The position numbers and the translations under genes were made by a program. Positions 30,579 through 35,181 of a DNA stretch of 64,000 nt are shown one piece after another (within the stretch, counting starts at the first letter, position 1; the number at the start of each line of letters is the position of its first letter). The notes under the pieces were generated by a model. That model was not told the origin of the DNA. It saw only the letters and a list, made by a program, of their open reading frames with translations, and made no database searches. This stretch comes from Natrinema saccharevitans (GTDB lineage Archaea; Halobacteriota; Halobacteria; Halobacteriales; Natrialbaceae), in the NCBI RefSeq assembly GCF_001953745.1, contig NZ_LWLN01000001.1, positions 2,790,001 to 2,854,000 of the forward strand, written 5' to 3'.

Positions 30579-31151
30579 ATGCAACTCGAGCCGAATCGCA
30601 CGGCAGTCGTGGTCGTCGACATGCAAAACGGGTTCTGTCATCCGGACGGCTCGCTGTACGCGCCGGGCAGCGAGGCGGTCATCGAGCCGATCGCCGATCT
30701 CCTCGAGCGCGCCCGCGAGGCCGGGACGCAGGTGATCTTCACCCGCGACGTCCACCCGCCGGAGCAGTTCGACGACGCCCACTACTACGACGAGTTCGAC
30801 CAGTGGGGCGAACACGTCCTCGAGGGCACCTGGGAGGCAGAGATCGTCGACGAACTGACCGTCGAAGACGGGGATCACGTGATCGAGAAACATACCTACG
30901 ACGCCTTTTACAACACCGAACTCGAGGGGTGGCTGAACGCCCGCGGGATCGGCGATCTGGTGATCTGTGGCACGCTCGCGAACGTCTGTGTCCTCCACAC
31001 CGGCGGTAGCGCAGGGCTGCGGGACTTCCGGCCGATCATGCTCGAGGACTGCATCGGCGCGATCGAAGACGGCCACCGCGAGTACGCGCTGGATCACGCC
31101 GCGTGGCTGTTCGGCGAGGTCGAGCCGAGCGCGGAGATCGCGTTCGCGTGA
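30579..31151 (+). CDS. Isochorismatase family hydrolase, nicotinamidase-like
   Basis: A 190-residue cysteine hydrolase of the isochorismatase superfamily. The triad is D14 (VVVDMQNGF), K104 (IEKHTYDAF) and C137 (TLANVCVLHT); the metal site of nicotinamidases is suggested by D57-x-H59 in RDVHPP. Conversion of nicotinamide to nicotinate is likely, especially with a nicotinate phosphoribosyltransferase gene 3.5 kb away, but related enzymes act on other amides. It starts at ATG 30579. Confidence 0.8.
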   Translation: MQLEPNRTAVVVVDMQNGFCHPDGSLYAPGSEAVIEPIADLLERAREAGTQVIFTRDVHPPEQFDDAHYYDEFDQWGEHVLEGTWEAEIVDELTVEDGDHVIEKHTYDAFYNTELEGWLNARGIGDLVICGTLANVCVLHTGGSAGLRDFRPIMLEDCIGAIEDGHREYALDHAAWLFGEVEPSAEIAFA

Positions 31152-31216
31152 TCGTCCGTCGACGGCTGCTCGCCCGGGCCCTCGCCTTTTCACGGCCGTC
31201 GGTCCAAGGGACACCC

Positions 31217-31297
31217 ATGAGAGACGCGCGATCGCGACTCGACGGCGGGTCGAACGGTCCGCCCCTCGAGTCGGCGACGGACGGTGATGGCACGTGA
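31217..31297 (+). CDS. 26-codon leader ORF of cassette 1
   Basis: Short frame of 26 codons (MRDARSRLDGG...) whose TGA stop overlaps the GTG start of the next gene by four bases (GTGA), an arrangement typical of translational coupling. An equivalent 26-codon frame with the same kind of overlap (ATGA) precedes the paralogous gene at 31749. Peptide sequences are only weakly similar (RS-x-L near the start, S19). It may be a regulatory leader rather than a functional protein. Confidence 0.45.
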   Translation: MRDARSRLDGGSNGPPLESATDGDGT

Positions 31298-31458
31298 ACC
31301 GGCGGCGACTGCGCCCGCTGTATCTGATCGGCATCGCGCTCAACGCCGTCGCGTTCACCTACGCCGTGACGAACGGCACGTGGCTGTACGCCGGCGCGTT
31401 CGCCGTCGTCGCGGGTTATCTCGTCGTTCGGCTGCGGATGGTATCCGCCGACGGCTGA
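31294..31458 (+). CDS. 54-residue two-helix membrane protein, copy 1
   Basis: Starts with GTG inside the overlap with the upstream 26-codon frame. Two hydrophobic helices (about residues 9-25 and 30-46) are separated by a short turn, ending in RLRMVSADG. Paralogue of the 54-residue protein at 31749: both share MN-x-RRL-x-P-x-YL-x-G at the start and RLR followed by AD at the end. The TGA stop lies inside the terminal arm of palindromic element B copy 3. Function unknown. Confidence 0.6.
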   Translation: MNRRRLRPLYLIGIALNAVAFTYAVTNGTWLYAGAFAVVAGYLVVRLRMVSADG

Positions 31459-31541
31459 TACGGTCTCCCGTCCGTCGTTGTCGGTGGGACCGCGAGCCGC
31501 TCTGAGTCCCACCGGGATCGGGATAGTACACCGTACGAGTC
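31455..31541 (-). repeat. Palindromic element B, copy 3 (inverted)
   Basis: On the minus strand it reads CTCGTACGGTG...CCCGGTGGGACT...GTCCCACCG...ACCGTATCAG, matching copy 1 closely in the central part. Inner arms CGGTGGGAC and GTCCCACCG are perfectly complementary over 9 bp. It separates the two 26/54-residue cassettes and overlaps the stop codon of the first. The rest of the gap to 31671 shows nothing else except the upstream sequence shared by both cassettes. Confidence 0.68.
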
Positions 31542-31671
31542 CGCTGCACCGCCGAGAGCCGAGGACCCGCTCATCGCTCCCGGCGAGAACGCGACCGTCC
31601 TCGAGCGGACGGAGATCGGCCGCCGGCCGCCGATCCGAAGCTGTTTCCCACAGTCGGTCGAACGCACGGGC

Positions 31672-31752
31672 ATGTGCGGAATTCGATCGGCGCTCGCGAC
31701 GACCGCGGGCCGCTCGAGCGGCGGGTCGACGGCGGGGGGAGCAGCCGAATGA
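31672..31752 (+). CDS. 26-codon leader ORF of cassette 2
   Basis: Exactly 26 codons (MCGIRSALATT...), ending in an ATGA overlap with the next gene, just as in cassette 1. About 30 bp upstream of the ATG are shared with cassette 1 (TTTC, GTCGGTC, AA, AC at similar spacing), supporting a duplicated promoter-leader unit. Confidence 0.45.
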   Translation: MCGIRSALATTAGRSSGGSTAGGAAE

Positions 31753-31913
31753 ACGAACGGCGGTTACTGCCGGTGTACCTGCTCGGTGCGGCGGGCAGCG
31801 CGTACGCCTTCTGGTACTACGTCTCGGCGAGTGCGGTCCTGCCGGCGCTCGCCTTCGGGCTCGTGACCGTCGCGTTCGTCGCCCGACTGCGGATACTGAC
31901 CGCCGACTCGTAG
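31749..31913 (+). CDS. 54-residue two-helix membrane protein, copy 2
   Basis: Paralogue of 31294-31458 with the same length, a MNERRLLPVYLLG start, two hydrophobic helices and the ending ARLRILTADS. It begins in the ATGA overlap with the 26-codon leader. Conservation of length, ends and gene overlap argues that both copies are real genes. Small size suggests a subunit, a regulator or a membrane-active peptide; no family recognised. Confidence 0.62.
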   Translation: MNERRLLPVYLLGAAGSAYAFWYYVSASAVLPALAFGLVTVAFVARLRILTADS

Positions 31914-31974: not shown

Positions 31975-32466
31975 TCAGTCGCTCCGGAACACCCGGTACG
32001 CGCCCTGCCCGATCGCGACCTCGTGGGCTTCCCCGTCGGGCGTCGTACTCTCGACGACGATCTCGCTGACCCCGACGCTGCCGCCGACACGGACGACGTC
32101 CGCCGTCGCCACGAGATCCCCCGTCGCCGGCCGGAGGTAGTTGAGGTTCAGGTTGATCGTCGCGATCCGCGCGCCGAAGGGGTCGTCCATGGCCGTCCGC
32201 AGGCAGAGCCCGCCGACGGTGTCGATCAGCGTCGCGGCGACGCCGCCGTGCATGTCCGCCCGTTCGTCGTCGGCGGCGTTGGGCCGCGTGTTCGTCAGTT
32301 TCTCGTCGTAAGGGATCGACATCGTCATCGTCCCGTCGCCGACGTGGTCGATGCTCGTCCCGAGCCACGAGAGGAACTCCTGGTTCTCGTCGAGGAAGTA
32401 CTGCAGCATGCTCTCCCGGTCGTCGAACTCCTCGAGCATGTCCTCCGTCGGCGCGTCTTCGGTCAT
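31975..32466 (-). CDS. PaaI family thioesterase
   Basis: A 163-residue hotdog-fold acyl-CoA thioesterase of the PaaI type. The catalytic-helix motif is MHGGVAATLIDTVGG, followed by ATINLNLNYLRPA, the usual second conserved strand. It probably hydrolyses aryl- or acyl-CoA in the cytoplasm. The substrate is not predictable and no phenylacetate genes are nearby. Start ATG 32466. Confidence 0.86.
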   Translation of the reverse strand: MTEDAPTEDMLEEFDDRESMLQYFLDENQEFLSWLGTSIDHVGDGTMTMSIPYDEKLTNTRPNAADDERADMHGGVAATLIDTVGGLCLRTAMDDPFGARIATINLNLNYLRPATGDLVATADVVRVGGSVGVSEIVVESTTPDGEAHEVAIGQGAYRVFRSD

Positions 32467-34524: not shown

Positions 34525-34656
34525 ACGCGTCGGTTCGACGCGCCGGTTCGTAATAATTCCCCGATCGACACGACGGCTGCCGAAGTGAGGTAACGTTTTT
34601 CGTCTCCGTGTCGTTTCCCCAGGCATGACGACACGAACGCGACCGGAGGGGCGGCG

Positions 34657-35181
34657 ATGACGGCGGACGGCTCGGAGTCGGCCGGCGGATCGGCGGGGAC
34701 GGACGCCGCCTGGGACGACCTCCTCGAGGACGCGGCCGAAATCGCCGAGGAGTACCGCGAGGAAGGGTGGGACGCCGTCGTCCTCGAACCGGCCGACGTC
34801 TCGCCGGTCGAGAGCGACGACCGAACCGGACTCGACGTCGCGGTCTCGCAGTCGGCGTACGAACTCGTCGAGGGCCTGATCGAGGACGGCGACGTGACGA
34901 TTGCCGCGGCCGACGTCTACTACCGGCCCCTCGAGGAGGGGGACGGCGACCGGCGGGTGGCGCTCGCGGTCGAACGCGACGAGGAGACCGAGACGGCCGT
35001 CCTCGTCCCGCTGGTTTACGATATCACGGCGTGTCGGTCCGTCTTCGAAACCGCGCTGCTCGAGGCGGAACTGCTGGTTCACGTGGCGGCCGACCCCGTC
35101 GCGGGCCGGGTGACCTTCTCCCACGACGATCCCTCGCTCTTTCTCGAGGAGTCGGACGTACAGGCCTGGAGCGAGGAGTAA
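34657..35181 (+). CDS. Uncharacterised haloarchaeal protein
   Basis: A 174-residue acidic cytoplasmic protein with patterns I associate with a haloarchaeal DUF (possibly DUF7529): WDDLLEDAAEIAEEYREEGWDAVVLEPADV at the start (cited in part), a middle VALAVERDEETETAVLVPLVYD and an end FSHDDPSLFLEES. No catalytic motif. Upstream, an 11-codon frame starting at 34625 ends in an ATGA overlap with this ATG. It converges on nadC. Confidence 0.7.
   Translation: MTADGSESAGGSAGTDAAWDDLLEDAAEIAEEYREEGWDAVVLEPADVSPVESDDRTGLDVAVSQSAYELVEGLIEDGDVTIAAADVYYRPLEEGDGDRRVALAVERDEETETAVLVPLVYDITACRSVFETALLEAELLVHVAADPVAGRVTFSHDDPSLFLEESDVQAWSEE

Follow-up and report, generated by a model that had tools for sequence, protein, structure and literature searches.

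Conserved coupling of a variable short leader frame to a two-helix membrane microprotein suggests a leaderless bicistronic relay in haloarchaea

The closest precedent for the locus described here comes from mycobacteria, in which leaderless small open reading frames (ORFs) are coupled to a following gene by an RTGA overlap, and in which this linkage is conserved while the encoded peptide is not (Shell et al. 2015, PMC4633059). That system uses bacterial promoters and ribosomes and has the support of ribosome profiling. Termination-reinitiation at 4-nt overlaps has been described in the haloarchaeon Haloferax volcanii (Huber et al. 2019, 2023; PMC6728339, PMC10666635), with an ATGA overlap and an SD motif inside the upstream frame. 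In the Haloferax pairs that were tested, translation of the downstream gene strictly requires that of the upstream one (PMC6728339), and a distance of about 20 nt almost abolishes reinitiation (PMC10666635). At a 5'-UTR tested in the same organism, an SD motif failed to bring about de novo initiation (PMC3986360). A leaderless bicistronic design in Corynebacterium glutamicum also starts from a leaderless promoter and needs both fore-cistron translation and an SD motif for its strength, but it is synthetic and bacterial (PMC10367133). Short ORFs of 15 to 31 codons are known before genes of H. volcanii (Babski et al. 2016, PMC4983044); these were searched only in UTRs of 150 to 250 nt, and the accessible part of that study does not report a coupling overlap or neutrality. 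In the same study, 72% of protein-coding transcripts in Haloferax are leaderless. Together with the failure of the tested SD motif to initiate, this raises the question of how genes with an apparent 5'-UTR are translated. The mechanism proposed below is known piecewise, as reinitiation in Haloferax and as leaderless coupled ORFs in mycobacteria, and in the literature searched we found no archaeal description of a leaderless leader relay.

The analysis began from a 64,000-nt stretch of Natrinema saccharevitans (Natrialbaceae; assembly GCF_001953745.1, contig NZ_LWLN01000001.1, positions 2,790,001 to 2,854,000), referred to here as the window. It contains a tandem pair of units, each made up of a 26-codon ORF and a gene for a 54-aa membrane protein (Table 1). 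A preliminary description had reported these two successive units, and its coordinates, all four lengths (26, 54, 26, and 54) and both overlaps were right. Its view of the two proteins as paralogs also held (26 of 54 residues identical; E = 2.4e-7), as did the likeness it had noticed over about 30 bp upstream: 19 of the 31 nt 5' of the leaders match, against a mean of 8.6 and a maximum of 17 in 2,000 shuffles. Judged from its sequence, this upstream likeness appears to be that of a core promoter. The two leader peptides are unalike, with 7 of 26 residues identical.

Table 1. Features of the two units and of their surroundings, in window positions.
Feature	Position	Strand	Basis
TATA-like box of unit 1, TTTT, 30 nt 5' of leader ATG	31187..31190	+	T-runs concentrated at -28 to -30 (81 leaders, ATG chosen by frame only)
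AA at -11/-10 of unit 1, fits haloarchaeal WW -10 element	31206..31207	+	Sequence; consensus in PMC4983044
Leader cistron 1, 26 codons + TGA, putative leaderless start	31217..31297	+	Frame kept at 20 lengths; leader pN/pS ~1
SD-like GGTGA, 6 nt 5' of protein 1 start	31283..31287	+	SD-like motif in 75/82 leaders
54-aa membrane hairpin protein 1 (predicted), GTG start, GTGA overlap	31294..31458	+	114/125 family genomes; pN/pS 0.28; AlphaFold2
Degenerate TATA-like box of unit 2, TTT, 28 nt 5' of leader ATG	31644..31646	+	Close relatives have GTTTAC
AA at -11/-10 of unit 2	31661..31662	+	Sequence
Leader cistron 2, 26 codons	31672..31752	+	ORF call, relatives
SD-like GGAG before protein 2 start	31738..31741	+	Sequence
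54-aa membrane hairpin protein 2 (predicted; paralog), ATG start, ATGA overlap	31749..31913	+	ORF call, homolog search
Isochorismatase-family hydrolase, own reading frame, usual upstream neighbor	30579..31151	+	PF00857, 3.5e-52; upstream of 92 copies
Hotdog thioesterase, convergent neighbor	31975..32466	-	TIGR00369, 1.6e-22; synteny
Second independent candidate relay leader, 11 codons (MTTRTRPEGRR), ATGA overlap	34625..34660	+	Layout in 30/30 fetched relatives, 9-14 codons
DUF7529 protein, putatively served by second leader	34657..35181	+	PF24373, 1.6e-31

The membrane protein was found in 114 of 125 genomes of Natrialbaceae, including Natrinema, Natronorubrum, Haloterrigena, Halobiforma, and other members of the family, and a class-wide sample of 391 genomes yielded only five matching genomes outside it. 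Natrinema genomes mostly carry the tandem pair and other genera mostly a single copy; in the assembly studied here the only two clear copies are those of the window. The copy of eight single-copy Natrinema genomes resembles unit 2, and the copies of other genera resemble unit 1. Comparison of these sequences suggests a duplication in Natrinema followed by the loss of unit 1 in the single-copy genomes. The earlier statement that the protein belongs to no described family was upheld, as no Pfam or NCBIfam model scored above its cut-off; this is a new family of conserved membrane microproteins, undescribed in Pfam and NCBIfam. A sequence search of the PDB gave a single match, at an E value of 0.44. 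AlphaFold2, run with the window and locus sequences, placed two helices at residues 3 to 27 and 30 to 53 (mean pLDDT, 91.6), and the predicted fold is a two-helix membrane hairpin. Both ends are probably cytoplasmic, because basic residues flank both helices. Residues Y10, G13, A33, F36, and R46 are invariant in a broad alignment. We also looked for a partner by neighborhood; the isochorismatase and thioesterase genes are usual neighbors without being universal, and no function follows from them. In some genera (five relatives) the convergent neighbor looks, from a reading of its sequence, like NosL and not like a thioesterase.

The overlap of the leader's stop codon with the start codon of the next gene is weak evidence when taken alone, because any ATG followed by A contains TGA; the test must therefore come from relatives. 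The membrane gene lies downstream of the isochorismatase gene in 92 syntenic copies, of which 87 keep an ATGA, GTGA, or TTGA start. Upstream ATGs were picked in these copies without use of the reading frame, as those 22 to 35 nt after a TTTT, TTTA, or ATTT run. Eighty-one of the ATGs chosen in this way lie in the coupling frame and three in another (that of L100 and secondary ATGs of L110 and L130). The second copy in the window, in which the TATA box is reduced to TTT, was added by hand, giving a total of 82 leaders. The layout is kept in 82 of 92 syntenic copies. The equal length of 26 codons, which recurs in most Natrinema copies, does not hold generally: in relatives the leader has anywhere between 9 and 49 codons or still more, and lengths of 17, 22, 25, and 32 codons occur within the same genus. 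The 82 orthologous leaders come in 20 lengths of 12 to 47 codons that vary in steps of three, and nearly all of them stop exactly in the ATGA, GTGA, or TTGA overlap, the exceptions ending slightly inside the gene. Counting each distinct length as one event, our own arithmetic puts the chance of the frame being kept 19 times at about 3^-19; parsimony on the isochorismatase tree gives 33 changes of leader length, losses included. Of the other two frames of the real leaders, one has stops in 56 of the 82 and the other in 50; after shuffling, 57% of leaders remain open. A control distance, measured between the end of the isochorismatase gene and the ATG, falls into each of the three phases (28, 25, and 12). 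What goes beyond chance, in this comparison, is that the promoter-proximal ATG keeps the coupling frame while the leader takes 20 different lengths.

Some relatives depart from this layout. Four of them lack the leader, and there the membrane protein itself starts at the promoter-proximal ATG; the leader is also missing from L009 copy 1, L019, and L094. In two frame slips the leader still overlaps the gene, with a stop at +5 in L100 and at +7 in L084. Non-syntenic homologs in several genera are without the leader layout. In three relatives of one genus, the GTG start of the homolog overlaps (GTGA) a long upstream coding frame that is not a leader. In L057 the leader ATG of an otherwise similar unit is replaced by ACG, a natural loss variant. 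The loci thus supply natural variants of several kinds: leaders with lengths between 9 and 49 codons, units that have lost the leader, slipped frames, and an ATG-to-ACG change.

Selection was compared between the two parts of the unit by using 25 nonoverlapping close pairs, with the same pairs serving for the leader bodies and the membrane gene. The membrane gene is constrained, with a pN/pS of 0.28 and differences by codon position of 62/49/172. For the leader bodies the corresponding values are 1.03 (bootstrap, 0.79 to 1.36) and 58/64/62. The divergence of the leader bodies (0.127) is close to that of the third positions of the gene (0.134), and GC3 is 0.68 in the leader versus 0.84 in the gene. 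The leader ATG shows zero differences in close pairs, although an ATG was required when the leaders were chosen. The amino acids of the leaders are slightly off shuffled composition, with more E, D, and T. A search of the 82 copies for conserved codons or residues in the leaders found none. The linkage is accordingly better conserved than the leader peptide sequence, a property by which an RTGA-coupled leaderless leader cistron is recognized. By these measures it appears to be the relay that is conserved and not the peptide, which evolves neutrally; selection would be for a frame that stays open all the way between a leaderless ATG and the start codon of the following gene. The preliminary description had taken the constancy of the layout as a sign of selection on a coupled leader and a tiny membrane protein, and had proposed a comparison of substitution rates. 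The part that concerns the coupling and the membrane protein is supported; the idea that constant length indicates selection on the leader itself is not supported.

These data bear directly on two other roles that the leader might have. A micropeptide with a function of its own, whether exerted in trans or through binding to the membrane protein, would be in keeping with a leader that is open in 82 of 82 copies and with the length shared by most Natrinema copies. We rejected it on account of the neutral pN/pS, the flat codon positions, and the variable length; the GC3 and the genera in which the membrane protein starts directly also speak against such a peptide, and we regard it as very improbable. 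Alternatively, the leader may be a regulatory attenuator in which stalling or slow codons switch the membrane gene on or off, as its position in front of the gene and a termination overlap that would permit control might lead one to expect. Yet the lengths vary widely and the leaders lack conserved codons or residues, and the folding of the window leader RNAs is unremarkable (z scores of 0.64 and -1.31), apart from a single sub-window of 66 nt in unit 2, which scores -2.30. An RNA switch in the leader was rejected on these folding scores, and attenuation in general seems to us quite unlikely.

In 81 copies whose leader ATG was chosen by frame only, TTTT and TTTA runs are most frequent 28 to 30 nt before that ATG. 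In the window, unit 1 has TTTT at -30 and unit 2 has TTT at -28, and both have AA at -11/-10. TATA and WW elements are described for haloarchaea (PMC4983044), and the spacing in the window matches them. Because this spacing points to the leader ATG, that ATG is expected near the transcript start; the mRNA is probably leaderless, starting at or close to the leader ATG. Of the 82 leaders, 75 have an SD-like motif of at least 4 bases toward their end and 37 have GGTGA, both raw counts without a shuffled background; the remaining 7 leaders have no clear motif. With such a motif before the start in most copies, the frame could be fortuitous: the mRNA could be leadered and the membrane gene could use an SD of its own, independently of the leader. 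Against this stand the frame kept at 20 lengths, the TATA spacing, and the inability of an SD motif to drive initiation in the Haloferax 5'-UTR where it was tested (PMC3986360), and we give a fortuitous frame hardly any chance of being correct.

We consider it very likely that each unit is a natural leaderless bicistronic relay, in which the leader's only job is the delivery of ribosomes. The comparison supports such a relay through promoter spacing, conservation of the frame, a neutral leader peptide, and a constrained membrane protein, and from these we infer where the transcript starts, that the leader is translated, and that reinitiation follows. The frame slips that keep the overlap and the four relatives in which the membrane protein starts at the promoter-proximal ATG also speak for it. 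Counting against it are the copies without a leader or with ACG for its ATG, the 7 leaders with no clear SD-like motif, the slight deviation in leader amino acids, and the non-syntenic homologs that lack the layout. The transcript would begin at the leader ATG or a few bases away from it, and ribosomes would load on its leaderless AUG, translate 26 dispensable codons, and terminate at the TGA inside RTGA. They would then reinitiate on the overlapping start codon, probably aided by the SD-like motif at the end of the leader, and the product that matters would be the 54-aa two-helix membrane protein. Since the downstream genes of the tested Haloferax pairs strictly need upstream translation, reinitiation is limited by distance, and a tested SD motif fails to initiate, ribosomes would get in at a leaderless AUG from which a short frame leads into RTGA. 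The overlap of two frames might also permit frameshifting that joins the leader and the membrane protein into one longer protein; given a neutral leader peptide and the start codon kept in nearly all syntenic copies, this has a practically negligible probability. Many copies have an in-frame stop three codons before the start, which excludes a plain N-terminal extension in them. The proposed relay shares the short, here probably leaderless ORF, the RTGA overlap, and the conserved linkage with the mycobacterial case but differs from it in having an archaeal promoter, in the more than 80 orthologous copies and pN/pS values available, and in being known from sequence comparison. It differs from the native Haloferax gene pairs in that the first gene of those pairs stands on its own and the leader here looks disposable.

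The same layout occurs at other genes. The leader of the DUF7529 gene in the window keeps it in all 30 fetched relatives; in L209 the frame has slipped and still runs into the gene. An RNA methyltransferase-like gene has a 44-codon leader with an ATGA overlap (L222, from 456 on). A promoter-proximal frame of 17 to 49 codons is present in 14 of 30 of its relatives, and all 14 of these leaders stop within a few bases of a candidate gene start. As these are two unrelated genes with the same layout, the relay looks general. With a confidence only a little above even, we favor the idea that disposable leaderless leader cistrons are a general haloarchaeal device for starting translation, by which a gene that has no leaderless start itself would obtain one by way of a short frame with a meaningless peptide, now annotated as untranslated 5'-UTR. 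Part of the apparent 5'-UTRs may be leader cistrons kept only for ribosome delivery. The frequency of the layout was sampled in 20 stretches of 20 kb plus the window, 464 kb in all. Four of 28 promoter-proximal short frames ended in an RTGA overlap with a coding frame, which are small numbers, compared with 59 of 2,416 short frames without a T-run, a conservative control as it includes the ends of ordinary genes. The frame before the RNA methyltransferase-like gene is one of the four. Two further cases were seen: a 21-codon leader joined by ATGA to a coding frame of 222 aa (minus strand of L215, at 1097) and a 20-codon promoter-proximal frame that ends at the start of a 406-aa gene in a GGTGATG context (L225 at 2403).
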